From the NCBI GenBank assembly GCA_903885085.1, contig CAISHH010000144.1, positions 1 through 35,156 of the forward strand: a stretch of DNA of 35,156 nt. The letters run 5' to 3'. Positions 6,783 through 34,233 of the stretch are shown in pieces. The notes under the pieces were generated by a model. It ran no database searches. It was given only the letters and a program-made list of their open reading frames with translations, and was not told where the DNA came from. This DNA is from an uncultured Campylobacterales bacterium (GTDB lineage: Bacteria; Campylobacterota; Campylobacteria; Campylobacterales; Sulfurimonadaceae). The number at the start of each line of letters is the position of its first letter. Position 1 is the stretch's first letter. A program made the translations under genes and the position numbers.

Positions 6783-6792
6783 CTTCTACCCC

Positions 6793-7188: not shown

Positions 7189-7245
7189 CTATTTTCCTTG
7201 TTGCTATTAGCAGTCAGAAGTTTCTCATTGGTAATGACTCTAGAA

Positions 7246-7322: not shown

Positions 7323-7332
7323 AACGTTTATA

Positions 7333-8063: not shown

Positions 8064-8066
8064 GAA

Positions 8067-8665: not shown

Positions 8666-8916
8666 GCTTCTGCTCCTACTAATACGATGCTTTTCAATCT
8701 ATAAGATTTACTTTTAGATAAAGGACGACATTCAGCAGCAACAATTTCGTCACCTACTTTTAGTTCATTACGCTCATCATGCACTAGGTACTTTTTGAAA
8801 CGTTTAACAACTTTATGATATTTTGGGTGCATTACACGGCGTTCTACTACGATAGATACAGTTTTATCACCAGATATCTTAATTACATTACCTTGAATTT
8901 CACGTTTATGTGTCAT
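8662..8916 (-). CDS. rpsQ: 30S ribosomal protein S17
   Basis: S17 is an early 30S assembly protein with an OB fold. Motifs are [38 protein letters not shown] and a C-terminal [14 protein letters not shown] place the start at the ATG giving MTHKREIQG, because AAGG lies about 6 to 7 nt upstream. A TTG two codons earlier is the alternative start (8922). The product is 84 residues. Confidence 0.95.
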
Positions 8917-8925
8917 TACCAACCC

Positions 8926-9111
8926 TTACTTCATTGCGCTAAGCGCAGTGTTGATACGTGCAATATCTTTTTTAGCGAAACGTAGTTCACTATTATTTGT
9001 TAATTGCATCATTTTTTGTTTTATTTTCAAAGTAAACAGCTCAGTTTTTTTAACTTTTAGCATTGCTAGAAGCTCAGCTGTACTTTTTCCTGCTAAATCA
9101 GAATATTTCAT
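8926..9111 (-). CDS. rpmC: 50S ribosomal protein L29
   Basis: L29 is a small two-helix protein by the nascent-chain exit. The 61-residue product contains [15 protein letters not shown] and [13 protein letters not shown], the typical pattern. Its 5' end overlaps the 3' end of rplP by 14 nt, a translational coupling. Confidence 0.95.
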
Positions 9112-9523
9112 TGCTCATCTCCGCAGTTATAATTTTAGTTTTAAATGGTAGTTTGTGCATTGCAAGAGTTAGCGCTTCACGTGCTAAGTCATGGTTAACA
9201 CCACCCATTTCAAATATGATACGACCCGGCTTGATGTTCATTACCCATTGATCAACTGAACCCTTACCTTTACCCATACGAGTTTCAAGAGGTTTTGCAG
9301 TTAACGGTTTTGCTGGGAATACTCTGATCCAGATTTTACCACTACGTTTTATGTGACGTGTCGCAGAAATACGAGCTGATTCAATTTGACGAGAATTGAT
9401 ACGTCCAGCTTCAACAGCCTTAAATCCAATTGTTCCAAAAGTCAGTGTATAACCACTACGAGCGTAACCACGGTTACGACCCTTCATCATTTTACGGTAT
9501 TTAGTTCTCTTAGGCAATAACAT
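9098..9523 (-). CDS. rplP: 50S ribosomal protein L16
   Basis: L16 organises the aminoacyl-tRNA site of the large subunit. The 141-residue product starts [19 protein letters not shown] and has [18 protein letters not shown]-type core sequence and the [20 protein letters not shown] segment with EMGGV. All are standard for the family. Confidence 0.97.
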
Positions 9524-9525
9524 AC

Positions 9526-10248
9526 TTATTCAGCCTTTCCGCTATTTTCGCGTCTTGGAGCACGTTTAGCTGGGCGACGTGACTCTTGTTTTTCTTCTTT
9601 TACTTCAGCAGGAATACCTTTTGTAAGTACTTCACCTTTGAATATCCAAACTTTAACACCGATACAACCATAAGTTGTGTGTGCTTCAGCAAAACCGTAA
9701 TCTATTTTTGCACGTAGAGTATGAAGTGGAACACGTCCCTCTAAATACCACTCAGTACGTGCCATTTCAGCACCACCAAGACGACCAGAAACAGATACTT
9801 TAATACCTTTTGCACCAGAACGTTGTGCACCCTGCATAACTTTTTTCATCGCACGGCGGAAAGCAACACGACGCTCAAGTTGAGTAGCAACATTTTCTGC
9901 AACAAGTTGAGCAGCAGCCTGAGCTTTTTTCTCTTCTTTGATGTTTACAGAAACTGGTTTACCAATGAGTTTTTCAAGAGTAGATTTCAATTTCTCGATA
10001 TCTGAACCTTTTTTACCAATGATAATACCAGGACGAGCAGCGATAATAGTTACACGTAAACGTTTAACAGTACGCTCAATAATGATGTTAGAAACACCAG
10101 AATAGTAAAGCTCTTTTTTCAAATATGTACGGATTTTATGATCTTCACCAATGTTACCCGCAGCAGTTTTGAAATTAGGAAACCAACGGCTTTCCCAGTT
10201 ACGGTTGATACCAAGGCGAAGGCCAATAGGATTAACTTTTTGTCCCAT
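9526..10248 (-). CDS. rpsC: 30S ribosomal protein S3
   Basis: S3 lines the mRNA entry tunnel and has helicase activity. The 240-residue protein starts [16 protein letters not shown]. It has the KH type II domain with the GKKG loop ([15 protein letters not shown]) and a C-terminal domain with [14 protein letters not shown]. It ends in a lysine/arginine/glutamate-rich low-complexity tail (about residues 216-240). Confidence 0.97.
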
Positions 10249-10250
10249 AA

Positions 10251-10568
10251 TTATTTACCCTCTACTTCTACTAAAATATGTGCTGTTGGTTTACGAATAC
10301 CAGACGCCATACCACGAGCACGTGGACGGAAACGTTTAAGTACTGGACCATTATCAACACGGCAAGATGTGATAACACAATCTGCTGCTTCGTTACCACT
10401 GTTAGCTACTGCAGATGCAACAACTTTAGCAATGATTTTTGCTGCTTTGTTTGGAGTGAATTCTAAAGCTGCAAGTGCAAGCTCAGCATTCATACCTTGA
10501 ATTTCACGTGCAACAAGACGTGATTTGATAGGTGAAACACGGATAAATTTTAATAATGCTCTAGCCAT
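10251..10568 (-). CDS. rplV: 50S ribosomal protein L22
   Basis: L22 lines the nascent peptide tunnel. The 105-residue product contains [15 protein letters not shown], the basic hairpin tip with [24 protein letters not shown], and the C-terminal VEVEG. Length and order are standard. The hairpin residues match the usual sequence, with no sign of macrolide-resistance insertions. Confidence 0.96.
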
Positions 10569-10570
10569 AA

Positions 10571-10849
10571 TTAACCTACCTTTTTCTGTACAGAACCTTT
10601 ATGGCCCTTGAACGTACGAGTTGGAGCGAATTCTCCAAGTTTATAACCAATATGGTTTTCAGAAACGAATACTGGTACGAATTGACGTCCGTTGTGAACA
10701 TTGAATGTCAAACCAACCATTTCTGGAAGAACCATACTACGACGTGACCAAGTTTTGATAGGTTTGTTGTCTTTTGCAGCTTTTGCAGCAACAACTTTCT
10801 TCATCAAATGATCATCAACAAATGGACCTTTTTTTACACTTCTTGCCAT
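10571..10849 (-). CDS. rpsS: 30S ribosomal protein S19
   Basis: S19 binds 16S rRNA in the 30S head. The 92-residue protein has [31 protein letters not shown] and the conserved C-terminal [18 protein letters not shown]. Confidence 0.97.
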
Positions 10850-10853
10850 TTAA

Positions 10854-11693
10854 CTACCTCTTCGGATTAGATTTACGGCGAGTAATAATAAGTTTATCAC
10901 TAGCTTTTTTACGACGAGTTTTAGCACCCTTCGTTGGTTTACCCCACGGAGTAACCGGATGACGTCCTGAATTCGTTTTACCTTCACCACCACCATGCGG
11001 GTGATCGACAGGGTTCATAGCAGAACCACGAGTTTGAGGACGGATACCCATATGACGAGAACGACCAGCTTTCGCTATAACAATATTAATATATTCTTCG
11101 TTACCGACAACACCAACAGTAGCATAACACTCACCTAAAACTAAACGCATTTCAGAAGATGGCATACGAAGAGAAACATATTTCCCATCACGTCCCATAA
11201 TTTGTGCACTTGTTCCAGCTGAACGAACCATTTGACCACCTTTACCAGGCTTAAGTTCGATATTGTGTACAGTTGTACCAACCGGGATGCTCATGAGTTT
11301 CATTGCATTACCGACTTTAACGTCAAGACCAGATTCAGCAGATGAAATAACATCTCCTACATTAAGACCTTTTGGTTGAAGAATATAACGTTTTTCACCA
11401 TCAGCATAGTTGATTAGAGCAATACGACAGTTACGGTATGGATCATACTCGATAGCTGCTACTGTTCCAGGGACATTTAACTTATCACGTTTAAAATCAA
11501 TTATACGGTATAGTTTTTTTGCACCCGCTTGTTTATGACGAGAAGTGATACGACCATTGTTATTACGTCCAGCATGTGCAGGAAGTTTGATAAGCAATGA
11601 ACGAACACTAGCTTTTGCAGTGATATCACCGTTGTCAACATTTGTATAAAAACGACGGCTTGGTGTTACTGGTTTATAAGTTTTAATAGCCAT
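10854..11693 (-). CDS. rplB: 50S ribosomal protein L2
   Basis: L2 is needed for subunit joining and peptidyl transfer. The 279-residue product has the OB and SH3-like domains, with [16 protein letters not shown] near the N-terminus and the conserved C-terminal [17 protein letters not shown] with its essential histidine region. Confidence 0.97.
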
Positions 11694-11694
11694 C

Positions 11695-11976
11695 TTATAC
11701 CGCCAAACTTTCTATTTGTGCACCCTCTGGTAGAGTAACATAGAACTTTTTGAAGTTGTTTTGTTTACCAGCGATACCACGGAAACGTTTTACTTTTCCC
11801 GCTTGATTTAATGAGTTTATACGAGTTGGAACGATTCCAAAATACTCTCTAAACACCTCTTTAAGACCTGTTTTAGTCATACGAGGAGATGTTTGTACAA
11901 CGATTACACCATCTTCTTGAAGACCAAGAGTCTTTTCTGTATATATAATAGATTTGATATCTGTAATATCTGCCAT
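11695..11976 (-). CDS. rplW: 50S ribosomal protein L23
   Basis: L23 surrounds the exit tunnel and docks trigger factor and SRP. The 93-residue product has [16 protein letters not shown] and the loop [24 protein letters not shown]. It overlaps rplD by 1 nt. Confidence 0.95.
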
Positions 11977-12590
11977 TATTCAGCCTCTCTTACAAGATTT
12001 TCCCAAACCGCTTTTTCGATCACTACTGAACGATAAGTTGCAGCTAAGAATGCGTTTAACTCATTTTCTTCAACTACATAAGCAGATTGAACGTTACGGA
12101 ATGCTAAGAATGTTTTTTCATCTAAAATAGATTTTACAAACAATGCATCACGTTGACCAAGAGCATTAAATATTGCCATTGCATCTTTTGTTTTACCAGA
12201 AGCAACTTCAAGAGTATCTATAATAAATAGTTTCCCGTTGTTAGCTAACTCGTCTAAAGCAAATTTAAGAGCAAGTTTCTTTTGTTTTTTGTTGATTTTA
12301 AGATCGTAGTTACGGTTATTTTTCGAACCGAAAGCTTGACCCCCACCAACAAATAATGGTGAACGACGTGAACCAGCACGTGCTCCACCTTTACCTTTTT
12401 GAGCCCATGGTTTTTTACCACCACCGCTTACTTCTGCACGAGTCTTAGTAACAGCAGTATTAGCACGTAATCCTGCTTGGTAAGACTTTACATATAGATA
12501 TAAGTTGTGTGAGTGAATCCCACTAAAGCTTGCTGGTAATGCTAACTCAGATGCTTTTTCAAATTTTTCATTAAGTACTATAGCGCTCAT
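11976..12590 (-). CDS. rplD: 50S ribosomal protein L4
   Basis: L4 lines the exit tunnel with its extended loop and in E. coli represses the S10 operon. The 204-residue protein carries the loop motif [20 protein letters not shown] followed by [16 protein letters not shown]. The C-terminal domain is more diverged, as is usual. It overlaps rplC by 1 nt. Confidence 0.96.
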
Positions 12591-13165
12591 TATTTAGTAA
12601 CCTTTACACGACCTAATGCACCGTTAGCACCTGGAATTGATCCAGCAACAACTAGTACACCGTTTTCAGCGTCATAAGAGATAATTTCATTTTTAACAGT
12701 AATTTTTGTATTACCATATTGACCTGGCATTTTTTTACCTGGTTGTACACGACCTGGCCACTCAGCATTACCGATTGAACCAACTAGTCTGTGAAAACGT
12801 GAACCGTGACCACCAGGACCACCAGCAAAATTCCAACGTTTCATAGCACCAGTAAAACCGCGACCTTTTGTATTAAAAGATGATTTTACAACTTTAGCTG
12901 ATTCAAGTGGACTCATATCTAAGTCACCAGCTTCAGCGTTTGCAACGCTCATTGTTACAAAACGATTGAATTCAGCAGACAAAGAATATTTCTTTTGTTG
13001 CCCTTCTACCGCTTTATTCATTTTTTTGCCATTGTTATAAGCAACAATCGCAACCCCATTATTAACTTCACATACCTTAGCTTCTTTTACTTTTAATAAA
13101 GTAACAGGTGTACTAGGTACAGTGATAGTACGGCTCATACCGATTTTTTCAACAATATATTCCAT
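12590..13165 (-). CDS. rplC: 50S ribosomal protein L3
   Basis: L3 reaches the peptidyl transferase centre. The 191-residue product begins [14 protein letters not shown]. It has the long glycine-rich loop with [41 protein letters not shown] and C-terminal [12 protein letters not shown]. It is somewhat shorter than E. coli L3 (209). Confidence 0.96.
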
Positions 13166-16670: not shown

Positions 16671-17655
16671 CTTTTTCTCTCATCTTTACATAGAAGAAAG
16701 CGTTAAAGAAGAGGCGCTTACATGGAAGATAATGCAGAAGTTTTCAAACTCCAAAATCATCTTTATCAAACATTATAAAGATGTTTTTAACCGTCCAAAT
16801 CAAGACTTTGGAGTGCAAAGCAAAAGCAAAAATCTTATCTTAGCGCGAAGAGAAGCACCGTTTTTGTATGAAGGTTCTTACTACAGCGACGGTTTTGAGT
16901 ATGAACATTTCTTTTACACACCCTCAATTTTGGGCTGTTTATATGACTGCGAATATTGCTACCTCAGCGGAATGTACAACTCCGCAAACAGTGTATTTTT
17001 TGTCAATACTGGGGATTTTTTTGATGCTGTCTTGACTTATCTTAACAAACCTACACTCATCGCCATCTCTTACGACACTGACACTTTAGCGATTGAGTCT
17101 CTCACTTCACACACAAAAGAGTGGATAGAATTTGCACAGAAACATCCAAATCTCCATCTTGAAGTGCGTACAAAAAGTGCAAATTTCAAAAGCATAAAAA
17201 ACCTTACATGTAACGATAATATTGTCCTCGCTTGGACACTCTCACCGCAAAAGATCATCGATCTTTATGAACATAAAACACCCTCACTTGAAAAACGTCT
17301 TAGTTCCATAAAAGAAGCGATAGACGCTGGCTGGAGAGTGCGAGTCTGCATCGATCCTGTAATCTATAATGAAGATTTTAATGAACTTTATCCACCATTA
17401 ATCGATAAACTTTTCACCACTATTGATGCCGAAAAACTTTTTCAGCTGACACTCGGAAGTTTTCGTATGAGCTCAACCCATCTTAAAAAGATCAAAAAAT
17501 TACGAAGAAGCGACATCGCTTTTTACCCTTATGAGGTTAAAGACAATATCGTTTCTTATGGCAAAACCATCGAGCAAAATATCTTACATGTAATGACTGA
17601 ATGTGCAACAAAATATATCGATAAAGAGAGGATTAGAACATGGCAACTGCAGTAG
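16639..17655 (+). CDS. Spore photoproduct lyase-like radical SAM protein
   Basis: The 338-residue protein has the cluster motif C100-LYD-C104-EY-C107 followed by Y108, the C-x3-C-x2-C spacing of radical SAM enzymes and of spore photoproduct lyase (SPL). Downstream sequence also follows SPL, including an HLEVRTKSANF strand and an AIDAGWRVRVCIDPV segment. In the region where SPL has its hydrogen-donor cysteine (AACTSDIVGIDHLT in Bacillus), this protein reads ISYDTDTLAIESLT, with tyrosine in place of cysteine. It is therefore SPL-like but may not repair spore photoproduct. The start is TTG at 16639, supported by GAGGAG 8 nt upstream. It overlaps both neighbours. Confidence 0.85.
   Translation: MNHLLKPSHCDFFSHLYIEESVKEEALTWKIMQKFSNSKIIFIKHYKDVFNRPNQDFGVQSKSKNLILARREAPFLYEGSYYSDGFEYEHFFYTPSILGCLYDCEYCYLSGMYNSANSVFFVNTGDFFDAVLTYLNKPTLIAISYDTDTLAIESLTSHTKEWIEFAQKHPNLHLEVRTKSANFKSIKNLTCNDNIVLAWTLSPQKIIDLYEHKTPSLEKRLSSIKEAIDAGWRVRVCIDPVIYNEDFNELYPPLIDKLFTTIDAEKLFQLTLGSFRMSSTHLKKIKKLRRSDIAFYPYEVKDNIVSYGKTIEQNILHVMTECATKYIDKERIRTWQLQ
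17204..17213. repeat. Dispersed palindrome TTACATGTAA
   Basis: Exact copy in the SPL-like gene, read as LTCN. Confidence 0.9.
17584..17593. repeat. Dispersed palindrome TTACATGTAA
   Basis: Second exact copy in the SPL-like gene, read as LHVM. Confidence 0.9.
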
Positions 17656-18335
17656 TTACAGGCGCGAGCCGAGGGATAGGAGAAGCGATCTCACAAAGAC
17701 TTTTAGAGCTTGGTTATAACGTTATCGGCATCAGCAGAACCATCAATGAAAGTCCGATTCATCATCCAAATTTCAAAGCACTTACCTGTGACCTCAGCGA
17801 TGAAAAAATGACTGCTTCCATTCTCACACTTCTTAGCACTGATCCATCTATTACGATCCTTTGCAATGTTGCAGGATTTGGAGTTTTTGAACCACATGAA
17901 GAGATAAGTCCAAACACTTTATCCAAGATGGTTACACTCAATCTTACAACTCCTATGATTCTAAGCAACGGACTTTTAAGGGCGTTAAAATTTAATGAAG
18001 GAATCATCTTCAATATTACTTCCATCGAAGCCCTTCGTCACTCCAAGTTTTCAGCCATTTACACAGCAACCAAAGCAGGTCTTCGTGCGTTTAGTCTCTC
18101 ACTTTTTGAAGAAGTAAGAAAAAGCGGAGTCAATGTCGTCAGTATAAACCCCGATATGACAGCTACCTCATTTTTCGATGAACTTCGATTTGGAACTTCT
18201 GAGGAGTTTGACAAGCGCCTCGAAGCCGAAGATATCGCCGATGCTGTGCAAAATATACTTCAAATGAGAAACGGTGTTGCAATCACCGACATCACAATCC
18301 GACCGCAAAAATTTGGCCTTGAGAAGAAAAAATAA
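17640..18335 (+). CDS. Short-chain dehydrogenase/reductase
   Basis: This 231-residue classical SDR has the nucleotide-binding motif TGASRGIG (residues 7-14), the NVAG motif near 76, and the catalytic S128, Y141 and K145 (YTATK). Substrate and cofactor are unknown. R11 in the glycine motif and R33 after the second strand favour NADPH, by analogy with the family. It overlaps the SPL-like gene by 16 nt, with AGAGGA upstream of the ATG. It ends the three-gene operon before the fliD promoter. Confidence 0.9.
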   Translation: MATAVVTGASRGIGEAISQRLLELGYNVIGISRTINESPIHHPNFKALTCDLSDEKMTASILTLLSTDPSITILCNVAGFGVFEPHEEISPNTLSKMVTLNLTTPMILSNGLLRALKFNEGIIFNITSIEALRHSKFSAIYTATKAGLRAFSLSLFEEVRKSGVNVVSINPDMTATSFFDELRFGTSEEFDKRLEAEDIADAVQNILQMRNGVAITDITIRPQKFGLEKKK

Positions 18336-20780: not shown

Positions 20781-22920
<2,140 letters not shown>

Positions 22921-22921
<1 letters not shown>

Positions 22922-23685
22922 TGCCCTACTCTAAATATCTATCTTCTCTTGATATTAAAGTGGGAGACACACTTCTTGTCGCTTCAAATATACTCCAACT
23001 CGGTGTAAACCTAAAAAAAGAAGGCATAAAATTTGGTTCCGATGATATGATCTCAAGTTTACAGAGACTCTTAGGTCCAGATGGAACACTTCTCTTTCCA
23101 GCCTTCAATTATGATTTTAGTAGCCAAAAAGGGTATGACTATCTTCATTCACCTCCTCAAAACATGGGCGCTTTAAGTAATCAAGCATTTAAACGCAAAG
23201 ATTTTATGCGCACAAAACACCCTGTATTTTCATTTTTTGTAAGTGGAAAAAAAGTACAAAAATATTATAAACTTAATAATATCTCAGCATTTGCAAAGGA
23301 AAGTCCCTTTGATCTTATGTATCAAGATAACGCAAAGATGCTTTTTATCGATATTGAATACAATAGATCTTTTACTTTTATCCATTATGTGGAGGAGATA
23401 GTCGGTGTTCAGTATCGATATTTTAAAGATTTCACCTCTACCTATAAAGATCACAACAGCTTGGAAGAGCAAAGAACTTACACGCTTTTAGTCCGTGACT
23501 TAGAAAAAGGAGTTATTAATAGCTCTAATCCCATAGGTAAAATTTTGGAACAAAAAAACGTATCGAAAACTTATAACATTCTCGGCGTCAAATTCGCTCT
23601 TGTTGATCTCAAAAAGGCTTATAAAATTATAGAAGAAGATATACTTTTTAATGAAAGTAAAAACTTAATCTCCTACACAAAGTAA
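22921..23685 (+). CDS. AAC(3)-family N-acetyltransferase, probably acting on sugars
   Basis: The 254-residue protein matches the antibiotic N-acetyltransferase (AAC(3)/YokD) fold. It has GPDGTLLFPAFNYDF, MGALSNQAF, the motif RTKHPVFSFFVSG with H100, and FIHYVEEIVGVQYRYFK. In sugar biosynthesis loci such enzymes acylate amino sugars rather than confer resistance. It overlaps pseC (TAATG) and therefore belongs to the pse operon. It could transfer the acyl group made by the downstream FkbH/ACP genes, or simply N-acetylate; the sequence does not decide. The 3' end overlaps the convergent DUF4910 gene by 21 nt. Confidence 0.8.
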
Positions 23686-24927
23686 AATCTTCTCCTCCAT
23701 TAAACGTTGTACTATCCCATACAACTCCCAAATCGGCTTATTAATCTTTTGAGCTATCTCTAAAAGAGTTCTTTTTCCATTACTGTATGCAATCACATTA
23801 CGCATGGTAAAAACATACTCTCCGGGAGATTTGAAATATTGTGTCGGGTAGAGTCCACGTTTTCCAAGCTGTGGTTCACACAGTACAGTTGTTTTATAAA
23901 CATGGTTATTTTCCAAAGCTTCAAGCACTTTTTTTACCATCTCATAGCCACCTTCAAGCCCTTTTGGCGAGATGACACTGAGATCATCTTTTGAGGTGTG
24001 ATACTCTTTATAATGCCCATATTTTGTCCGCATCAGATCCACCACGGGCAAATCGATTCCCGGTGAACAGTATTGTCGTTCATCACTTCCACGCTGTAAA
24101 AAGCTATATTTTTTATAATCTTTATCGATGTGGGACAACACATGTTGTGCAACTTCATCAGCTAAAGTGTCACCATCAATAGAAGCCAAATAGGAGTAAT
24201 CTCCTTCATCACCAATACATGTAAGCACAAAACCTGCGATAATATTATTTTGCATCTCTTTGTAATGACGACTCAAATAGCAAATAGAACCAATAGTTTC
24301 AGGGATAAAAAGAATGCGATAGCTATAACGCCGAGGCAACTCTAAAAGCCATCTTGCCAAGTGAATACTCACTGTTGGACCAGAGAGTTCATTATTTGCC
24401 ATGGAGGGATGGCAAATATAAGTTGAGAGCAAAATCTCCTCTTCGCTCTCTCCTTTTATCAAGATTTCACCATACGTTAATGAGCCATCTTTTAACTCAC
24501 TATCGATAAACACCTCATACTCGCCCTCTTGCAACTTTTCTCTCTCATTGTGACTGAGACAAAATCCCCAATCTCGTTTGTAGTAGCTCGTCACATAAGG
24601 AATAGCTTCAGGATAATCAGCAATGGAACGAAGATGTTTTTGTAGCTCAACAAGCGGCATTTTTGTGTGAATTGGCTCAGAATAGCCCATAAGGTGGAGA
24701 TTATGCTTTTTAAAATCGATCACTTTTGTGCCATTTGCATCTTTTACATTCCACTCTTGGGGCACATTCCAGTCAAAACACGCTGTGCCACTTGGAATTT
24801 CGCTTACATGTAAAAAGGGAACTATCTCTTTTAATATCTCTAAAGTTTCTCTGACTCCATTACCAGTCAACGAACGATTGATCGGATAGAGTTTAACAGC
24901 TAAATCGTATATCTTATCTCCAATCAT
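23665..24927 (-). CDS. DUF4910 aminopeptidase-like protein
   Basis: This 420-residue protein has the M28-like zinc peptidase fold of the DUF4910 family. It has CHPSMANNELSGP (around 172-183, H173), E210 in FIPETIGS, and a late YHTSKDDL segment. A C-terminal part of about 70 residues resembles a small winged helix, including GKRTLLEIAQKINKPIWELYG. Members are often found in surface polysaccharide loci and may act as deacylases or amidases. The usual bridging aspartate position reads N-E (ANNELSG), which I recall as typical of this family. It lies on the opposite strand to the pse genes and overlaps yaiI by 4 nt. Confidence 0.75.
   Translation of the reverse strand: MIGDKIYDLAVKLYPINRSLTGNGVRETLEILKEIVPFLHVSEIPSGTACFDWNVPQEWNVKDANGTKVIDFKKHNLHLMGYSEPIHTKMPLVELQKHLRSIADYPEAIPYVTSYYKRDWGFCLSHNEREKLQEGEYEVFIDSELKDGSLTYGEILIKGESEEEILLSTYICHPSMANNELSGPTVSIHLARWLLELPRRYSYRILFIPETIGSICYLSRHYKEMQNNIIAGFVLTCIGDEGDYSYLASIDGDTLADEVAQHVLSHIDKDYKKYSFLQRGSDERQYCSPGIDLPVVDLMRTKYGHYKEYHTSKDDLSVISPKGLEGGYEMVKKVLEALENNHVYKTTVLCEPQLGKRGLYPTQYFKSPGEYVFTMRNVIAYSNGKRTLLEIAQKINKPIWELYGIVQRLMEEKILLCVGD
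24804..24813. repeat. Dispersed palindrome TTACATGTAA
   Basis: Exact copy in the DUF4910 gene, read on the minus strand as LHVS. A near copy (ATACATGTAA, read as LTCI) lies at 24215 in the same gene. Confidence 0.9.
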
Positions 24928-25627: not shown

Positions 25628-26350
25628 ATGAATTTAATGATCATCATCCAAGCCCGCATGACTAGCACCAGACTTCCTGCCAAAGTGATGCTTCCGCTAT
25701 GTGGCAAAACTGTTTTGGAGATCATGCTAGATCGTCTAGCACCTTTTCACAAGAACATCATCATAGCCACCACGGATGATGGTTCACAAACTCCAATAGT
25801 TCAGCTTTGCGAAACCTTACATGTAAAGCATTTTGAGGGTGATACGGATGATGTTTTGAGCCGTTACTACCACAGCGCAATAAAGTTCGACGCGGATGAT
25901 GCGACTATCATCGTGCGATGCACAAGCGACTGCCCGCTGATAGATGCAGATATCATAAAAGAGACGATTGAGTTTTATAAAAACAGTGACGCCGAGTATG
26001 TCTGTGCTTGCCAAAATAGTGGATTTCCACGTGGAATGGACAGCGAAGTTTTCTCATTTAAACAGCTCAAAGAGGCTTACCAAAACGCTTCTACTCCTCA
26101 TCAAAAAGAGCACGTCACACCCTACATCAAAGAAAATGTTAAATGTGCATCTTACAAAAATACACAAGATCATTCAAAATACCGTCTTACCCTTGATGAG
26201 GAAGATGACTATAAAGCCATCACGGAACTCTATGCAAAACTAGGATACAGAACTGATTTTTCTTATGAAGAACTCATAGCAACGCTCGAAAAAAATCCCA
26301 ATATTTACGAAATAAACAAGCATGTCGAACAAAAAAAATATACTCATTAG
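25628..26350 (+). CDS. SpsF-type cytidylyltransferase, likely CMP-pseudaminic acid synthetase
   Basis: The 240-residue protein belongs to the SpsF/KDO cytidylyltransferase-like group. It has QARMTSTRLPAKVM near the N-terminus, TTDDGSQTPIVQLC, RCTSDCPLIDADII, and a C-terminal YRLTLDEEDDYKAI. The canonical PseF is absent, and this gene sits directly before pseG (overlap 29 nt), so it probably activates the sugar with CTP; this is inferred from position and is uncertain. In other bacteria SpsF-type proteins occur in spore coat and flagellar glycan loci. It carries one exact copy of the palindrome at 25817, read as LHVK. Confidence 0.8.
   Translation: MNLMIIIQARMTSTRLPAKVMLPLCGKTVLEIMLDRLAPFHKNIIIATTDDGSQTPIVQLCETLHVKHFEGDTDDVLSRYYHSAIKFDADDATIIVRCTSDCPLIDADIIKETIEFYKNSDAEYVCACQNSGFPRGMDSEVFSFKQLKEAYQNASTPHQKEHVTPYIKENVKCASYKNTQDHSKYRLTLDEEDDYKAITELYAKLGYRTDFSYEELIATLEKNPNIYEINKHVEQKKYTH
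25817..25826. repeat. Dispersed palindrome TTACATGTAA
   Basis: Exact copy in the SpsF-type gene, read as LHVK. Confidence 0.9.
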
Positions 26351-27317
26351 AATCGATTCATCTTCAAGTATCGGGCTTGGGCATTTGATGCGAACTCTTC
26401 TTTTGGCTGCCTCTCTCAAAAAGTATTTCAATATCACTTATGTTACGCAAAATCTCAAAGGCAATCAAAACCATCTTATAGAACAAAATGGTTTCGCCCA
26501 CAGAATCGTTCAAAATATGGATTGTGATACGCTTCTTGAAGTCATCAAAGAGCTTGGTCCAACGCTTTGTATTATCGACCATTATGGCATTAATATCGGT
26601 TGCGAAACTCAGATCAAAAGTATCTGTCCTCTTTTGGTCTTTGATGATGAGTTCAAGGTTCACAATGCAGATATCGTTTTAAACCACTCATTCATCGCGA
26701 AAAAAAGTGACTATGATTATCTCAAAAATACAAAAATCTTAGCTGGAAGTAGCTATACGCTTTTAAAAGATGATTTTTTATCTCACAAAAATCGCTTCAC
26801 TCCGCTTGGAACTCTAAAGAATAAAAAAATTCTTATTACACTCGGTGGAAGCGACCCACAAAATCTCTCACTTCGCATCAAAAAGTGGCTTATAACTCAA
26901 GAGAAATCCCTACACCCAAAAGGCACTTCGCATGTGCACATTGTGACAACCTCGGCAAATCAGAAAATCACCTATCTCAAAACGGCAGACAAAGAACTTA
27001 TCGTCAACGCAGAGGATATGGCAAAACTAATGCAAGAATATGATCTTATCATCACTAGCGCAAGCACTTCACTTTTGGAAACTTTTGCTCTTAAAAAACC
27101 ATTCATCGCTATCCAATGCGCTTCAAATCAAAGTAAAACTGTCGATGTATTACAGAAACAAAATCTTAAAAATATCATCACAAAATTTAGTCTTGCATCT
27201 TTAAAAAGCGCGCTAAACTTTGTACAATACCATCCACACAAGATAAAAAGAGTTCTAAACAAATATCACTTTCAAAAAGATAAAGTCGCAAAGGAGATAA
27301 TCCATGAATATACATAG
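26322..27317 (+). CDS. pseG: UDP-sugar hydrolase PseG
   Basis: PseG removes UDP from UDP-2,4-diacetamido-2,4,6-trideoxy-L-altropyranose (the PseH product), giving the free sugar for PseI. The 331-residue GT-B-like protein has the N-terminal IRIDSSSSIGLGHLMRT with the active-site histidine, ITLGGSDPQN, and a C-terminal ITSASTSLLETFAL. The peptide HPKGTSHVH (around residue 200) comes from a repeat also present in rnhB. It overlaps the SpsF-type gene and the FkbH-like gene. Confidence 0.9.
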   Translation: MSNKKNILIRIDSSSSIGLGHLMRTLLLAASLKKYFNITYVTQNLKGNQNHLIEQNGFAHRIVQNMDCDTLLEVIKELGPTLCIIDHYGINIGCETQIKSICPLLVFDDEFKVHNADIVLNHSFIAKKSDYDYLKNTKILAGSSYTLLKDDFLSHKNRFTPLGTLKNKKILITLGGSDPQNLSLRIKKWLITQEKSLHPKGTSHVHIVTTSANQKITYLKTADKELIVNAEDMAKLMQEYDLIITSASTSLLETFALKKPFIAIQCASNQSKTVDVLQKQNLKNIITKFSLASLKSALNFVQYHPHKIKRVLNKYHFQKDKVAKEIIHEYT

Positions 27318-28860
27318 CATCGCTTTTGTGTCAAACACCATCACAAAGCCTTTTGAACGATTTTTAAAAGAGTATTCCCTAACGCACTTTCCGCTTGATA
27401 CCATCATCGATACGCTTTATGCGAAAGTCGAAGAAGAGCTTCTCATCTTGCTTCTTGATGAGAGCTTTTTTAGCGAGAATTACGATGAAAGTTTTTTACT
27501 TTTAAAAAATGCGCTGCTTCATTTCCGTGTAAGTAACAGCGCAAAAATCATCATCAATACCGTGAATGAAGAGTTTAACGAGATATTCATACCCTACCAT
27601 GTAAGCAAAGAATTGGCTCTTCTCACGCTCAATCAAAAAATAGCATCTTTGCAAAACGAAGTGGCAGACCTTGCTGTTTTGGACTTTTACGCACTTTGCA
27701 AAGAGCACGGAAGTAAAAATCTCATCAGCCAAAGAAACCGCTACCTTTTTCAAACACCCTTCACAAAAATGGCAACGGAACTTCTAAGTGCGAAGATAAG
27801 AGAACTGATTTCGCTTTTTCACACACCTCGTATCAAAGCAATTGCCGTCGATGCGGATAACACGCTTTGGGGCGGAATCGTCGGCGAAGATGGAATCAGC
27901 GGCATAAAAATAGACAATAATTATCCTGGCATCATCTACAAAAAGTTTCAAAACTATCTCTTAGAACTAAAAAATAGTGGGATTATACTTATCTTACTGA
28001 GCAAAAACGATGAAAGTGCCGTGCAGGAAGTGTTTAGCAAAAAAAATATGCCACTAAAGTTGGATGACTTTGTACTGACTGCTATAAACTGGAACTCAAA
28101 AAGTGAGAACCTCAGCGCTATTTTAAAAGAACTCAGCCTTACAAAAACAGGCATTATTTTCATTGATGATTCCTCTGCGGAAATCGAAGAGATGAACCAA
28201 AGGATGCAGATAGAGTGCTTTAAGATGAACCCTTCAAATCCACTCGAAAATCTTGAGACGCTCAAAAATATCACCGCTTTAAAAACTCTACATGTAAGCG
28301 ATGAAGACAGTAAAAAAACAGCACTTTATAAAGATGAAAAAGAGCGCTCAACTTTAAGTTCGACTCTGCAAAGCAAAGATGATTTTATCACCTCTTTAAA
28401 GATCGAGATAAGCGTTACATGTAACAATATTCATCACCTAGAGCGTATAACACAACTAACAAACAAGACTAACCAGTTTAATCTCACGACTAAAAGATAT
28501 GAGTTTCACGAGATAAAAGAACTGATGCAAGAGGGTTTTGTTTATGACTTTAGCGTGAATGATAAGTTCGGAGATATGGGACTTGTCGGGGTTGTCATCA
28601 TCAAAGACAATGCAATCGATAGCTTCTTGATGAGCTGTCGAATTTTGGGTCGTGGAATCGAAGAGTGCGTGTTAGAGTTTATAACACGCAGACATCAAAA
28701 CCTAAGTGCTACTTACTTTAAAACAGAGAAAAACTCTCTCGTCGAAGAGTTCTATGACAAAAATGGATTTGAACTTACACAAGCTCAGGGCTCTAAGCAT
28801 TACAAATTTAGAAATTTTGCCGATATCAATGAAAGCATAAAGGTTAACTATGAATCTTAA
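27304..28860 (+). CDS. FkbH-like HAD protein, probable acyl loading enzyme
   Basis: The 518-residue protein has three parts. An N-terminal domain (about 1-150) resembles the SGNH-like part of long FkbH forms. A HAD domain (about 175-340) has D183 and D185 in AVDADNTLWGG, LSKND (232-236) and FIDDS with D288/D289. The C-terminal part (about 360-500) resembles a GNAT fold. FkbH enzymes take 1,3-bisphosphoglycerate, remove phosphate and load glyceryl onto an acyl carrier protein; other members load related hydroxyacyl groups. The next gene is an ACP, overlapping by 11 nt. Near and exact palindrome copies lie at 28288 (LHVS) and 28415 (VTCN). Confidence 0.88.
   Translation: MNIHSIAFVSNTITKPFERFLKEYSLTHFPLDTIIDTLYAKVEEELLILLLDESFFSENYDESFLLLKNALLHFRVSNSAKIIINTVNEEFNEIFIPYHVSKELALLTLNQKIASLQNEVADLAVLDFYALCKEHGSKNLISQRNRYLFQTPFTKMATELLSAKIRELISLFHTPRIKAIAVDADNTLWGGIVGEDGISGIKIDNNYPGIIYKKFQNYLLELKNSGIILILLSKNDESAVQEVFSKKNMPLKLDDFVLTAINWNSKSENLSAILKELSLTKTGIIFIDDSSAEIEEMNQRMQIECFKMNPSNPLENLETLKNITALKTLHVSDEDSKKTALYKDEKERSTLSSTLQSKDDFITSLKIEISVTCNNIHHLERITQLTNKTNQFNLTTKRYEFHEIKELMQEGFVYDFSVNDKFGDMGLVGVVIIKDNAIDSFLMSCRILGRGIEECVLEFITRRHQNLSATYFKTEKNSLVEEFYDKNGFELTQAQGSKHYKFRNFADINESIKVNYES
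28415..28424. repeat. Dispersed palindrome TTACATGTAA
   Basis: Exact copy in the FkbH-like gene, preceded by AGCG and read as VTCN. Confidence 0.9.
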
Positions 28861-29134
28861 AACAATTATTTTAAAAGCCGTAAAAGATGTGAATGAACAG
28901 CTCCAAATCGATGAGTTGGAAAATATCCACGAAGAGACTCCACTTTTTGAACTCCTCGATTCTCTTGGAACGCTTGATCTCATTTTAGAGCTTGAGTCCT
29001 CTTTGGAAGAGCATACGGGAGAGTATATCGCCGTTGCAAATGAAGAGAGTATGGACAAAAACAACACCCCGTTTAAAACGATAGTGACCTTAGAAAATTA
29101 TCTGCTTCAAAGGATAGCCGATGAGTCAAATTAG
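28850..29134 (+). CDS. Acyl carrier protein (first)
   Basis: The 94-residue acidic helical protein has the phosphopantetheine motif LLDSLGTLDLILELE with S38. It overlaps the FkbH-like gene by 11 nt and the KASIII-like gene by 14 nt. It is therefore likely the carrier loaded by the FkbH-like enzyme. The C-terminal part is longer than in a minimal ACP. Confidence 0.85.
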   Translation: MNLKTIILKAVKDVNEQLQIDELENIHEETPLFELLDSLGTLDLILELESSLEEHTGEYIAVANEESMDKNNTPFKTIVTLENYLLQRIADESN

Positions 29135-30194
29135 TTTTGCTAACATCGCCATTACTGCGATGGCAACGACTGTTGGCAATAATATCATCGAGCTTGAAGA
29201 TGAAAAAGAGCGTTTTGGATTTGATGATGATTCTTTTTCCAGACTCCAAAGAAGCATTGGTTTAAAAACACGTTATATCGCCGATGAAGGAGTTTGTGCA
29301 AGTGATCTGTGCGTGCAAAGTGCCGAAAATATCTTTGCAAACTCAGGCATCAAAAAAGAGGAGATCGAAGCACTTCTGTTTGTCACTCAGAGTCCCGACT
29401 ACAAAGCACCCTCTACAGCTATCATCATGCAAAACAGACTCGGTCTGCCGACAAGCTGCGGAGCGTTTGATATCAACCTTGGATGCAGTGGATTTATCTA
29501 CGGACTTTTCACAGCTTTTTCTTATGTCAACAGTGGGATGAAAAAAGTCTTGTTATGCGTAGGCGATGTGAATAGCTACTTCTCTGGCGAGCGCGACAAG
29601 ATATTTACGCCGCTTATGGGCGATGCGGGAAGTGCCATTATCATCGAGAAAAAAGACGCGCCACGTAGCTTTTTTTCACTTTACAGCGATGGAAGCGGAT
29701 ACAAGCATCTCATCGTCCCAGCGGGCGGAGCAAGAACTCCAAGCACGCCTGAAACACTCATTCCAAAAGAGAGAGAAGATGGCGGAATCCGCCGTGATGA
29801 AGATCTCTTTATGGATGGCAAAGAGGTGTTTAACTTTGCTATCAAAACCGTGCCTCCGCTCATAAAAGAGATCGTAGAGTTTGCAGGTAAAGAGAACGAC
29901 GAAATAGACTATTTTGTACTGCATCAAGCAAACCCTTACATCCTAAAAACAATCGCTTCACGTCTCAAAGTAGAAAAAGAGAAAGTACCGCTCGAAACTG
30001 GGCAAATATATGGCAACCAAAATGCCGCATCTATTCCCGGAACAATCAACGGCTTTTTAAGCGACGAGTTTAGTTCCAAAAAACTCACCATCGCCATTGC
30101 AGGTTTTGGCATCGGGCTTAGTTGGGGCGGAGCTGTGATTCAAACAGACAATATCTATGCGCCTAAAACAGAACTCTATAAAAAGGAACTATGA
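29121..30194 (+). CDS. Beta-ketoacyl-ACP synthase III-like enzyme
   Basis: The 357-residue FabH-like thiolase-fold protein has the catalytic triad C122 (NLGCSGF), H268 (VLHQAN) and N299 (YGNQNAAS). It condenses an acyl starter with a carrier-bound extender, or forms an ester or ring as in some natural product KASIII enzymes. It is unlikely to be the housekeeping fabH because of its position in a glycan locus between two ACP genes. The overlaps with both ACPs suggest coordinated synthesis. Confidence 0.88.
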   Translation: MSQISFANIAITAMATTVGNNIIELEDEKERFGFDDDSFSRLQRSIGLKTRYIADEGVCASDLCVQSAENIFANSGIKKEEIEALLFVTQSPDYKAPSTAIIMQNRLGLPTSCGAFDINLGCSGFIYGLFTAFSYVNSGMKKVLLCVGDVNSYFSGERDKIFTPLMGDAGSAIIIEKKDAPRSFFSLYSDGSGYKHLIVPAGGARTPSTPETLIPKEREDGGIRRDEDLFMDGKEVFNFAIKTVPPLIKEIVEFAGKENDEIDYFVLHQANPYILKTIASRLKVEKEKVPLETGQIYGNQNAASIPGTINGFLSDEFSSKKLTIAIAGFGIGLSWGGAVIQTDNIYAPKTELYKKEL

Positions 30195-30415
30195 TGACAC
30201 AGGAAAAATTTTTAGCACGTCTTGCTGAGGAAGTACAACTAGACCGTGCACTAAGTGCAGATGAGATGCTTTTTGATATTGCTGAATGGGATTCACTTGC
30301 GATGCTTGGCGCGCTCAGTGTGTTTGATGAGATCGGAGTCAATGTGGAGATCGATGAGCTTGAAAACTGTAAAAGTATCAAAGATATTTTAAACAAGGCT
30401 GGATTTGACTCTTAA
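30191..30415 (+). CDS. Acyl carrier protein (second)
   Basis: The 74-residue ACP has the phosphopantetheine motif EWDSLAML with S35. The first two codons are ATGATG. It overlaps the KASIII-like gene by 4 nt and the pseH-like gene by 11 nt. Two distinct ACPs in one locus suggest that one carries the FkbH product and the other an extender or chain. Confidence 0.83.
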   Translation: MMTQEKFLARLAEEVQLDRALSADEMLFDIAEWDSLAMLGALSVFDEIGVNVEIDELENCKSIKDILNKAGFDS

Positions 30416-30926
30416 GGGTTTTGATATTACGCTTACATCGCTTACATGTAAGGATATTGAGATGGTACGAAACTGGCGTAATAGCGATGAAGTGAAGCGT
30501 TATGCGCTCAATCAAAACTATATTACAAAAGAGCAACAAGAGGCGTGGTTTCAATCATTGCAAGAAAAAGAGGATAAGTATTTTGTTATTTATGCCAAAG
30601 ATGAACCCATCGGACTTATTTGGTTCAATAAATGCGATGAAACAGTAGAAACAGGGTTTTATATCTATGACACAACTAAACAAAACTCGCTCACTCCATA
30701 CAAAATAGTTAGTATTTTTCATGAGTATCTTTTCAACTCCAAGGAGTTCAAAACTCTTACATGTAAGATTATGCATGACAACCAAAGAGCTGTGCGTTTT
30801 AATCTCTCACTCGGTTACAAAGAGATTGAAATATATGAAGAATATAAAAGTTATACATTGAAATTTGATGATTATATAAAAGCAGATGCTAAAATATCAA
30901 AACTGCTTTTAAAAGAGAATGAATGA
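30405..30926 (+). CDS. pseH: Amino sugar N-acetyltransferase PseH
   Basis: PseH transfers acetyl from acetyl-CoA to the C4 amino group of the PseC product. The 173-residue GNAT protein has MVRNWRNSDEVKRYALN, PIGLIWFNKCDE and MHDNQRAVRFNLSLGY (coenzyme A region). The start is TTG at 30405, supported by AAGG 6 nt upstream. Given the acyl-ACP module just before it, an acyl-ACP donor cannot be excluded, but GNAT fold and neighbours favour PseH. Two palindrome copies (30442 and 30757) are both read as LTCK. Confidence 0.85.
   Translation: MTLKGFDITLTSLTCKDIEMVRNWRNSDEVKRYALNQNYITKEQQEAWFQSLQEKEDKYFVIYAKDEPIGLIWFNKCDETVETGFYIYDTTKQNSLTPYKIVSIFHEYLFNSKEFKTLTCKIMHDNQRAVRFNLSLGYKEIEIYEEYKSYTLKFDDYIKADAKISKLLLKENE
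30442..30451. repeat. Dispersed palindrome TTACATGTAA
   Basis: Exact 12-bp form CTTACATGTAAG in pseH, preceded by a partial copy GCTTACATCG in tandem and read as LTCK. Confidence 0.9.
30757..30766. repeat. Dispersed palindrome TTACATGTAA
   Basis: Exact 12-bp form CTTACATGTAAG, second copy in pseH, read as LTCK. Confidence 0.9.
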
Positions 30927-31942
30927 AAATAGCTGCGCACGACACATCTGAAAAAGTCTTCATCATCGCAGAACTCTCCGCGAACCATAATCAAGATTTT
31001 TCCCTTGCAAAAAAAGCGGTTTTAGTAGCTTTCGAAGCTGGATGTGATGCTATAAAACTTCAGACCTACACACCCGACTCGCTCACGCTCGACGTCAAAG
31101 ATGAAAAGTTCAAAGCCGGCGATCTGTGGCAGAATGAATATCTTTATGATCTCTACAAACGTGCGTGTATGCCGTATGAGTGGCACAAACCTTTAAAAGA
31201 GTATGCCGATGAGCTTGGAATCATTTTATTTTCATCACCGTTTGATCTTGATGCTGTGGATGTATGTGAGTCCATCGATGTGCCTGCGTACAAGATTGCA
31301 AGTTTTGAGATCACCGATATCCCGCTTATCAAATATGCCGCTTCCAAAGACAAGCCCATCATTATCTCCACAGGTGTCGGCGAGATAGAGGATATCGAGC
31401 TTGCAATTGCTACATGTAAGAGTGTGGGCAATAAAAATATCGTGCTTTTAAAATGCACAAGTGCCTACCCTGCAAAGCCGGAATCTATGAACCTTCTGAC
31501 AATCGCGGATATGAAAAAGCGTTTTGGCATGGAAGTGGGACTTTCAGATCACACTCTGGGAAATGATGCAGTCATCGCCTCCGTGGCACTAGGAGCTAGA
31601 GTCATAGAAAAGCACTTCACGCCCGATGAAAATATCGACACGCCCGATGGTGCGTTCTCGCTCTCGCCGAGTCAATTAAAAAAGATGGTGCAAAGTGTAA
31701 GAAACGTCGAAAAGATGCTGGGATGCGTGAAGTATGACGATAAACCAAAAGCTTATGCAAGAAGCCTCTATGTGAGCCGCGACATTAAAAAAGGGGAAGC
31801 TTTTACAAAAGAAAACATCAAAAGCATCCGCCCCGGAAATGGCCTTCATCCGAAGTTTTATGAAGAGGTTTTGGGTAAAATTGCGGCAACTGACATCAAA
31901 GTAGGCACAGCTTTACAAAAAACTGATATTAAAGAGTTTTAG
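30923..31942 (+). CDS. pseI: Pseudaminic acid synthase PseI
   Basis: PseI condenses the 6-deoxy-altrose sugar with phosphoenolpyruvate to make pseudaminic acid. The 339-residue NeuB-family protein has an N-terminal TIM barrel with IIAELSANHNQDFSLAK, AIKLQTYTPDSL, SSPFDLDAVD, YKIASFEITD, LLKCTSAYPA and GLSDHTLG. A C-terminal SAF antifreeze-like domain follows (around 285-339, ending with SIRPGNGLHP and GTALQKTDI). It overlaps pseH by 4 nt. Confidence 0.95.
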   Translation: MKIAAHDTSEKVFIIAELSANHNQDFSLAKKAVLVAFEAGCDAIKLQTYTPDSLTLDVKDEKFKAGDLWQNEYLYDLYKRACMPYEWHKPLKEYADELGIILFSSPFDLDAVDVCESIDVPAYKIASFEITDIPLIKYAASKDKPIIISTGVGEIEDIELAIATCKSVGNKNIVLLKCTSAYPAKPESMNLLTIADMKKRFGMEVGLSDHTLGNDAVIASVALGARVIEKHFTPDENIDTPDGAFSLSPSQLKKMVQSVRNVEKMLGCVKYDDKPKAYARSLYVSRDIKKGEAFTKENIKSIRPGNGLHPKFYEEVLGKIAATDIKVGTALQKTDIKEF

Positions 31943-31944: not shown

Positions 31945-34233
31945 ATGCAAAAAAGTATAGATGATATCTTTATCCAAAAAATAAAAGACAAAAAAATAAA
32001 GGTTGTATCTTTTGATATTTTTGAGACTTTAGCTTTTAGAGATGTTGCAGATCCAAAAGAGATATTCAAAAAAGTCGGTAAGAAAAAATATGTAAAAAAG
32101 ATTTTCGGTGATGCGAATATTTTTAGACTCGCTAGAGTAGAAGCTGAAAAAACTGCTAGAAAAAAATACTCCCGCTTTGAAGAAGTGACATTACAACAGA
32201 TATATGAACAACTCCCTCTTCAGAGCGAACAAAGAGAAAAGATTTTAGATCTTGAGATTGAACAGGAATATAAAAGTCTTTATATAAATCCGCAAATAAA
32301 AAGATGGATCGATCTAGCTATACAACATAAGAAGCAGATCATATTTATTTCAGATATGTATCTTAGTACGCAGCAGATCGAGCATCTTGTGATGTCAAAA
32401 CTGGATAGCTACAAAGATACTTCAAAGATCTTCGTTTCAAACGAGCATCAGGCAACAAAAGCAACGGGAAAACTATTTCAATTAGTCTTAGAGAGTTTAA
32501 AAATATCTAATGATGAGATACTCCATATTGGGGATAATTTTCATATGGATATTGAGATGGCTAAATCTAAAAATATCACAGCTCTTTTTTATAATAATGA
32601 CAAGTATGTAAATGAAATATTAGAAGTAGAATCTCACTACGCAGGTCAATTTTTCAATAAAGGATTTCACCAAAGAAAATTGGCTTGCATCCAAAACAAC
32701 TATGCTAAAGAGAAAGAAAGATTCTTTTTCAACCTCGGAGCATCAGTTTTTGGCCCTATACTCTGGGAGTTTTCACACTGGCTAATAGATATAGCAAAAC
32801 AGCAAAAAATTACACAGATAAACTGTGTTATGAGAGAGGGACGGATCTTTAAAAAGTTCCTAGAAAAACTTGACAATGATCTAGATATAAATCTTGTGTA
32901 CGCATCAAGAAAATCCACTTTCCTACCCTCGATCGATATCGCCAATAACAGTTTTGATTTTCATCATTACCGCAAATTGACTATCAAAGATTTTTATGAA
33001 TTGTTCAGGCTGAAAATCACGGATACTTTTATAGATTCCCACAAAACTATCTTATTTAGTGAAGCATCAGAGTATATTTTAAATAAAAAAAATTTAATGC
33101 AGGCAGTTATTGAAGACTTTAAAAAGAAAAAAGAGCAGATAGATAGCACTATATTAGAAACGAAAAAACATCTTCTTACCTATTTGGAAGGTCTAAATTA
33201 TCACGACAACTCCATCAGCTTAGATTTCGGCGGTTCGGGAACAGTGCTTCAAAATATACAAAACATCCTGCCTTTGGAAAAAAAGCATAAGATTAATGCT
33301 CTTTTTTATATACATGACTCCGGAGTAAAAAAACTTAGTAACTCCCACTTTGTGTCTTTTTTATCTCCCGATGATTTCAACACAAGACAAATAGAGTTGA
33401 TAAGAAGAAGTCATGAGATAGTAGAGAGTTTATTTAACGGTGACATAGGGACTACCCTTGCATATCAAAAAGTCGATGATACCATAGTACCTATTTTAGA
33501 TAAAGCAGATAAAAGTTTAACATTTGTATCTGAAGCATTTGACAAGGGCATAGAAAGTTTTTTCAATATTGCTAAAGAAACAAAATTAAAAGCCGGCAGC
33601 TTTAAACAAAAAGATGTATTGGCGATCTTGGCCAGACTGATCGATATACCCACAAAAGATGAGGCTGCTTATCTAGGCGCTCTGTACCAAAACGAGAGCT
33701 TTAAAGATGAAAATATAAAAACAATCATTTGTAAAGAGGATATCGATTTCATTAAAGAGATAGGCATACAAGAAGCATACTACTCGTTTTCAAAAGAGAT
33801 CTCCTTTCAAGTGGGAAAGATATCATGGATACAAGGTGTCATCACTCGACTTGATGAATCTTTTATACAAAATGTCAAAGGTATAAAATCAAAAAGTATC
33901 AATGCTAATGCAATTGAAAAAATTTTCACGCTACTTGACACTGAGCATATATATATCTATGGTGCCGGTCAATTTGCAAAAGAGCTACTTCCTGAGATTT
34001 CTCAAATGGAGATAGAGATTAAAGGTTTTATGGACAGTAGAGCAAAACTTGGAGAGTTTAATTTCGAGAATTACCAAGTCAAGACAATAGATGACTATAC
34101 TTTATCCGATAACGACACTATCATCATCGCCAGTACTGTTTTTGTTGATGAAATAGTCAAGACTATACAACAATATGCTCAAACAAATAAACGAAAAATC
34201 AAGATTATCACATATGAAAAAGTTATCTATTAA
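31945..34233 (+). CDS. Large HAD-like protein with C-terminal Rossmann module
   Basis: The 762-residue protein starts with a HAD domain (about 18-220): nucleophile D24 in VVSFDIFETLAFR, ISDMYLS, KATGKLF and HIGDNFHMDIEMAK. Position +2 of motif I is F rather than D, as in the FDIFDTL-type hydrolases common in polysaccharide loci. A middle part (about 240-640) of unknown fold follows, with MREGRIFKKF and LDFGGSGTVL. Residues 668-760 look like a nucleotide-binding sugar module (IYIYGAGQFAKELLPE). I infer a glycan role from position (2 nt after pseI), possibly glycosyl transfer or phosphate removal. It ends convergently with a glycosyltransferase. Confidence 0.65.
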   Translation: MQKSIDDIFIQKIKDKKIKVVSFDIFETLAFRDVADPKEIFKKVGKKKYVKKIFGDANIFRLARVEAEKTARKKYSRFEEVTLQQIYEQLPLQSEQREKILDLEIEQEYKSLYINPQIKRWIDLAIQHKKQIIFISDMYLSTQQIEHLVMSKLDSYKDTSKIFVSNEHQATKATGKLFQLVLESLKISNDEILHIGDNFHMDIEMAKSKNITALFYNNDKYVNEILEVESHYAGQFFNKGFHQRKLACIQNNYAKEKERFFFNLGASVFGPILWEFSHWLIDIAKQQKITQINCVMREGRIFKKFLEKLDNDLDINLVYASRKSTFLPSIDIANNSFDFHHYRKLTIKDFYELFRLKITDTFIDSHKTILFSEASEYILNKKNLMQAVIEDFKKKKEQIDSTILETKKHLLTYLEGLNYHDNSISLDFGGSGTVLQNIQNILPLEKKHKINALFYIHDSGVKKLSNSHFVSFLSPDDFNTRQIELIRRSHEIVESLFNGDIGTTLAYQKVDDTIVPILDKADKSLTFVSEAFDKGIESFFNIAKETKLKAGSFKQKDVLAILARLIDIPTKDEAAYLGALYQNESFKDENIKTIICKEDIDFIKEIGIQEAYYSFSKEISFQVGKISWIQGVITRLDESFIQNVKGIKSKSINANAIEKIFTLLDTEHIYIYGAGQFAKELLPEISQMEIEIKGFMDSRAKLGEFNFENYQVKTIDDYTLSDNDTIIIASTVFVDEIVKTIQQYAQTNKRKIKIITYEKVIY

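Follow-up and report, generated by a model that had tools for sequence, protein, structure and literature searches.

An FkbH-ACP-KASIII-ACP module in a pseudaminic acid locus of the Sulfurimonadaceae and its possible link to a divergent PseH

We analysed a 35,156-nucleotide stretch of DNA (contig CAISHH010000144.1 of GenBank assembly GCA_903885085.1, from an uncultured Campylobacterales bacterium of the family Sulfurimonadaceae), hereafter the window, and in particular four genes that lie in its pseudaminic acid (Pse) locus between pseG and pseH/pseI. These encode an FkbH-type protein, an acyl carrier protein (ACP), a ketoacyl-ACP synthase III-like enzyme (KASIII) and a second ACP, and they are followed by the gene for a divergent PseH:

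27304..28860, plus strand: FkbH-type protein, 518 aa, a HAD-IIIC phosphatase with a C-terminal GNAT-like part (TIGR01686)
28850..29134, plus strand: ACP1, 94 aa, with a clade-specific insert and phosphopantetheine serine Ser38 (alignment with relatives)
29121..30194, plus strand: KASIII-like enzyme, 357 aa (PF08541/PF08545; Cys122-His268-Asn299)
30191..30415, plus strand: ACP2, 74 aa, with phosphopantetheine serine Ser35 (alignment)
30405..30926, plus strand: divergent PseH (TIGR03585 72.4 bits, under the 93.1 cut-off)

The open reading frames, overlaps and families are as an initial annotation, made without database searches, had given them. Successive module genes overlap by 11, 14 and 4 bp, the module overlaps pseG by 14 bp and pseH by 11 bp, and the overlapping run extends from a cytidylyltransferase gene and pseG through the module into pseH and pseI.

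In a profile search the FkbH-type protein scores 251.4 bits with TIGR01686, above the cut-off of 146.65, and alignment places its HAD motifs (DADNT at 183, Ser233-Lys234 and Asp288-Asp289) and a C-terminal SCR(I/V)LGR motif with its cysteine at 445; the HAD motifs and this cysteine are kept in relatives, including the FkbH of Campylobacter jejuni-type loci. The KASIII matches both Pfam domains, and its Cys-His-Asn triad is intact, as first described and as in all module KASIIIs aligned. It falls below the cut-offs of both the housekeeping FabH family TIGR00747 (189.8 against 292.1 bits) and the C. jejuni FabH2 type NF009519/PRK12880 (266 against 436 bits), and the genome contains another KASIII (G000:C2:6178-7065), 36% identical to that of the module, which is presumably the housekeeping FabH. 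Neither ACP matches a Pfam family, and a weak match to the DltC family is the only NCBIfam match of ACP1; the serine of the DSL motif is present in both and kept in close relatives. ACP1 (28850-29134) also carries an insert, approximately IAVANExSMDxxxTPFKT, that is conserved in the lineage and was not seen in C. jejuni-type ACPs.

FkbH has relatives in 5/7 congeners, in members of three further genera of the same family and, beyond it, in a few genomes from other families of the order. Seven loci (the window and those labelled L046, L047, L048, L050/L045, L052 and L053) share the gene order pseG-fkbH-acp1-kas3-acp2-pseH and have pseI downstream of it, a few extra genes separating pseH from pseI in L046 and L053 and two separating pseG from fkbH in L052; this conserved arrangement is more than chance and, together with the overlaps, it bears out the view that the four genes are one functional unit tied to the pse genes. 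The four-gene module occupies the equivalent site in congeners as well as in members of two other genera of the family, which is the conserved clustering with pse genes that the initial annotation had proposed to look for. The extra genes of L052 (genome G015; L052:8301-9702) encode a PIG-L deacetylase and a formyltransferase-like protein and look like a further pair for N-acyl exchange on pseudaminic acid.

The congeners G006 and G007 have pseG-pseH-pseI without the module at the equivalent chromosomal site (fliD, fliS, pseC and two conserved small genes). Their PseC is 82-95% identical to that of the window, against 25-30% for PseH, 36-38% for PseG and 52-53% for PseI, so it is the enzymes from the acyl-transfer step onward, and not the earlier ones, that change with the module. 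Because the cytidylyltransferase or PseG of L046 and L052 is not of the window type, what stays constant is the module together with PseH and PseI; the PseI of module loci is 66-87% identical to that of the window, and other PseIs of the family are at most 58% identical to it. A contig scan with FkbH as the query returned three metagenome relatives only, and plasmid searches gave distant matches only (KASIII 40% at best, FkbH 35% at best), the two plasmid KASIII neighbourhoods examined being sugar or surface-polysaccharide settings.

The PseH beside the module is altered in a particular way. An alignment of PseH sequences scoring > 100 bits covered 47 loci, with positions numbered as in Helicobacter pylori PseH and transferred via alignment to C. 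jejuni PseH and the canonical motif. In the H. pylori structure Gly103 contacts the pyrophosphate of coenzyme A (CoA), Tyr138 has been proposed as the general acid and Asn131 contacts the pantetheine (PMC4363471). None of the ten ACP-linked PseHs (seven from loci with the FkbH module, three from loci with another ACP cassette) has glycine at the first position, against 37/37 from loci without ACP genes; none has tyrosine at the second, where asparagine or threonine stands instead, against 36/37; and Asn131 is kept in 47/47. The window PseH has lost the P-loop glycines and the general-acid tyrosine and retained the pantetheine asparagine, and all seven window-type module loci checked have a PseH without Gly103 and Tyr138 and with Asn131. 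In congeners that lack the module the PseH at the equivalent site is canonical and scores 152-154 bits with TIGR03585, and Campylobacter-type PseHs retain the CoA loop. A change of acyl donor from CoA to ACP would be expected to leave such a residue pattern, because ACP shares with CoA the pantetheine arm but not the nucleotide, and we infer such a change for the altered PseH. The three cases beside another cassette are those of L068, L075 and L080, in which the altered PseH is paired with an ACP, a short-chain dehydrogenase/reductase (SDR) and an AMP-ligase, LuxE and LuxC being added in L068. In an AlphaFold model of the window PseH (pLDDT 80, four sequences) the closest fold is FdhC, a sugar N-acyltransferase with a structure containing a bound 3-hydroxybutanoylamino sugar, and next come the PseHs of C. 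jejuni and H. pylori. Acyl-ACP-dependent GNAT-like enzymes do exist, FeeM for instance.

In the established pathway the N7 group of Pse comes from the PseH step and the N5 group from GlcNAc. We propose that the module turns 1,3-bisphosphoglycerate into an acyl group carried on ACP, and that the altered PseH puts this group on the C4 amine that becomes N7 of Pse, a reading to which we would give a probability of roughly 0.58. FkbH, to judge by its family, would remove the phosphate of 1,3-bisphosphoglycerate and load the glyceryl unit onto an ACP, and the KASIII would then move the acyl between the two ACPs or elongate it by two carbons. The altered PseH would transfer the acyl from ACP, and not acetyl from CoA, to the C4 amine of UDP-4-amino-4,6-dideoxy-L-AltNAc, and PseG, PseI and the cytidylyltransferase would carry the sugar on to CMP-Pse bearing the new acyl at N7. 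The more general suggestion of the initial annotation, a carrier-bound and unusual acyl group for pseudaminic acid, appears very likely from the sequences compared. More tentatively, and at somewhat less than even odds, the PseH clade might be a CoA-independent acyl-ACP aminosugar N-acyltransferase fed by a glycolytic FkbH-KASIII line and giving an unreported N7-glyceroyl or C5 polyhydroxyacyl Pse, the same clade with another ACP supplier amounting to a plug-in form of Pse acylation. The calculated oxonium m/z is 317.13 for Pse5Ac7Ac, 363.14 for the C3 glyceroyl form and 405.15 or 407.17 for a C5 acyl.

Two analogies lend support to the proposed N7 acylation by PseH. G041, which belongs to a different family of the order, has a related module, accompanied by an SDR, in a pgl N-glycan locus (L054) together with genes for a PglB-like oligosaccharyltransferase, a PglC-type transferase, a dehydratase, an aminotransferase and a PglD-type acyltransferase. 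PglD-family enzymes acylate the C4 amino group of the bacillosamine precursor, and the pse and pgl settings are alike in that the module adjoins or nears the predicted acylator of the C4 amine of a UDP-4-amino-4,6-dideoxy sugar. In this locus a related module also stands apart from pse genes, which counts against the initial interpretation. The other analogy comes from Acinetobacter (psaABCGHF versus psaABCDEF) and Shigella boydii Psb5, where a two-gene exchange accompanies a changed N7 acyl of Pse and may serve as a precedent; the acyl there is 3-hydroxybutanoyl, and the accessible parts of these papers do not mention an FkbH-ACP module.

Several points weigh on the other side. The FkbH chemistry is borrowed by analogy from polyketide systems, and the KASIII has no certain role if the acyl remains C3. 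Atypical P-loops are known in some CoA-using GNATs (PMC4964394), FdhC was crystallised with CoA, and the glyceroyl of C. jejuni is at N5, not N7 (PMC3068675). With the motif columns left out of the tree-building, the ten altered PseHs can group as one clade; in a test for independent origins a single change was enough to account for the pattern, which leaves no statistical independence, and the association of PseH with the module is one evolutionary event. Fisher's p of 2e-10 for the residue association is, with ten sequences that can be one clade, not to be taken at face value.

A different route to an acylated Pse is suggested by genes further upstream, where fliD, fliS, pseB, pseC and an AAC(3)-fold gene precede the module and a DUF4910 hydrolase gene lies on the opposite strand. 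The remaining genes of the locus are:

20790-21797, plus strand: pseB (profile search and locus comparison)
21794-22921, plus strand: pseC (profile search and locus comparison)
22921..23685, plus strand: AAC(3)-fold N-acyltransferase (PF02522)
23665..24927, minus strand: DUF4910 M28-like hydrolase of the Cj1295 family (PF16254, 358 bits)
25628..26350, plus strand: cytidylyltransferase in the PseF position (PF02348)
26322..27317, plus strand: PseG, UDP-sugar hydrolase (TIGR03590 188 bits, over the cut-off)
30923..31942, plus strand: PseI of a separate group (over the NCBIfam cut-off)

In L059 and similar loci, from another family, the order is pseB-pseC-DUF4910-AAC(3)-ACP-methyltransferase-epimerase-FkbH-KASIII-ACP. 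This matches the C. jejuni Cj1295-Cj1304 region: Cj1293/Cj1294 lie before Cj1295, an N-acetyltransferase is encoded by Cj1296/7, and cj1301 and cj1302 are the epimerase gene and fkbH. We call L059 C. jejuni-type on its gene order and on the 769 bits of its KASIII with NF009519/PRK12880. In C. jejuni 11168 flagellin, 2,3-di-O-methylglyceroyl is found at N5 of Pse and depends on Cj1295 (PMC3068675), and the published oxonium pair 391 and 317 fits, by our mass calculation, replacement of an acetyl. No dimethylglyceroyl ions were found in strain 12664, in which fkbH is a pseudogene (PMC7099621), or in strain 12661, which is without the epimerase gene, differences for which other strain differences could account. 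The window shares with this region pseB-pseC with DUF4910 and AAC(3), the FkbH-KASIII-ACP set and, as proposed, a glycerate-derived acyl on Pse, comparable to the known glyceroyl group. It differs in that its module is of a distant lineage (KASIII 36%, FkbH 25-32% identical), in having ACP1 between FkbH and KASIII and a PseH without the CoA loop, and in that the methyltransferase and epimerase-like genes of L059 are absent from the operon.

It might be, then, that the window follows C. jejuni, with DUF4910 removing the N5 acetyl, AAC(3) or another enzyme adding the acyl and PseH just acetylating N7. The position of DUF4910 and AAC(3) beside pseC, as in C. jejuni-type loci, and the requirement for Cj1295 (PMC3068675) favour such a route, but neither gene was found in the 12 other genomes searched, ten of them bearing FkbH (G001-G005, G009, G015, G018, G041 and G172), so that the window copies are the only ones in 13, and the window PseH lacks the CoA loop that Campylobacter-type PseHs have; we consider the route rather improbable. 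The initial annotation had instead made AAC(3) the final transferase of the ACP-bound acyl onto Pse or glycan. An AAC(3) gene does stand directly 5' of KASIII-ACP in the Campylobacter-type loci L060, L063, L064 and L065, but the same distribution excludes it as a general transferase, as it excludes DUF4910 as a required partner, and in the study that detected the dimethylglyceroyl modification Cj1296/7 was phase-off in both C. jejuni variants typed. That assignment is more doubtful still, and the altered PseH appears, from its sequence, the better candidate. The DUF4910 protein is 49-51% identical to C. jejuni-type proteins, and with AAC(3) it sits between pseC and two conserved small genes in what looks like an addition in the window genome; the two may form a putative exchange pair that replaces the N5 group in the way proposed for Cj1295. 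The CoA loop retained by Campylobacter-type PseHs is consistent with an acyl at N5 there and, as we read it, at N7 here.

Within the proposed ACP-to-PseH transfer, the KASIII might extend the glyceryl with malonyl to a C5 acyl (4,5-dihydroxy-3-oxopentanoyl or a reduced form). The intact triad of all module KASIIIs, two ACPs to fit two substrates and the FabG-like SDRs beside the related modules of G009 (L051) and G041 (L054) allow elongation, and tetronate FabH-like enzymes join glyceryl-ACP and a second acyl chain (PMC7489565). The window module, however, has no reductase (an SDR at 17640-18335 was ruled out, congeners without the module having it too), and the sole known Pse product of an FkbH-KASIII-ACP locus is C3, which argues for transfer without elongation if the C. 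jejuni KASIII participates; a C5 acyl seems to us unlikely, if less so than either alternative above. The likeness to tetronate biosynthesis drawn in the initial annotation stands for the enzyme families, all three of which (FkbH-like, ACP, FabH-like) recur among the glycerate-utilisation genes of tetronate polyketide clusters. These could mean that the module makes a separate tetronate-like small molecule and lies by the pse genes incidentally, but among the window proteins scanned we recognised neither a polyketide synthase nor a tetronate tailoring partner (the rest of the genome was not searched for polyketide synthases), and the module is set among pse and flagellar genes, with conserved overlaps and co-variation with PseH and PseI, which makes this very improbable.

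Other systems use ACP-borne acyl groups in comparable settings. The viosamine island of Pseudomonas syringae (VioS KASIII, ACP, VioR reductase, VioB acyltransferase) likewise provides a KASIII-ACP acyl supply for a flagellin aminosugar, but makes 3-hydroxybutyryl with a reductase, lacks FkbH and serves another sugar (PMC3927599). The group II flagellin islands of Aeromonas (ACP, OAR, AMP synthetase, LuxE, LuxC) have ACP-based acyl genes in a pse locus and resemble L068, with an acyl-supply chemistry other than that of the window (PMC7874193). L068 is the pse locus of G009 and has the ACP/AMP-ligase/LuxE/LuxC cassette instead of the FkbH module; apart from it, a short contig of the same genome (L051:9-3819) carries FkbH-ACP-KASIII-ACP together with genes for an SDR and an epimerase-like protein. 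Beside pseI at L100:1197-2970 and L145:8272-10061 lies another kind of ACP-KASIII cassette, one that lacks FkbH, and there a protein of 196-201 aa without a Pfam family occupies the PseH position.

Elsewhere in the window, pseI is followed by a gene for a 762-aa protein (31945-34233) that has a HAD domain at its N terminus and a weak PglD_N-like region at its C terminus; its relatives (38-40% identical) lie downstream of pseI in L047 and L048. Upstream of the flagellar locus, 2989-13165 on the minus strand is an ordinary ribosomal protein/secY operon. The window genome (G000) has no Maf/MptE-like (PF01973) match, against 8/8 relatives tested that score over the cut-off, the gene being absent from the assembly or replaced.

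The system is not an undescribed one, as had been thought: FkbH-KASIII-ACP with pseB/pseC, DUF4910 and AAC(3) is the C. jejuni-type layout, and dimethylglyceroyl-Pse is known (PMC3068675, PMC7099621). The gene set is a variant of the C. jejuni-type set, probably serving ACP-fed acylation of a flagellar nonulosonic acid; it is the destination of the acyl, N7 by way of an altered PseH, that looks new from the sequences. In the openly accessible literature, which leaves out most subscription journals, we found no study that tests what FkbH or KASIII does in a pse locus. In the one paper on flagellar glycans found there that names FkbH, it appears as an annotation, and the Shewanella sfm and Clostridium pse papers searched do not mention the module.

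The papers found do not settle how the glyceroyl of the flagellar sugar is made and attached in C. jejuni and its relatives, and the comparison across the family offers a possible division of labour, with an ACP-borne acyl and an altered PseH for N7 and DUF4910 for N5. Whether the Pse of a given locus is plain or unusually acylated may be predictable from the PseH sequence, at the Gly103 and Tyr138 positions; the sugar sits on a surface structure recognised by phage proteins.

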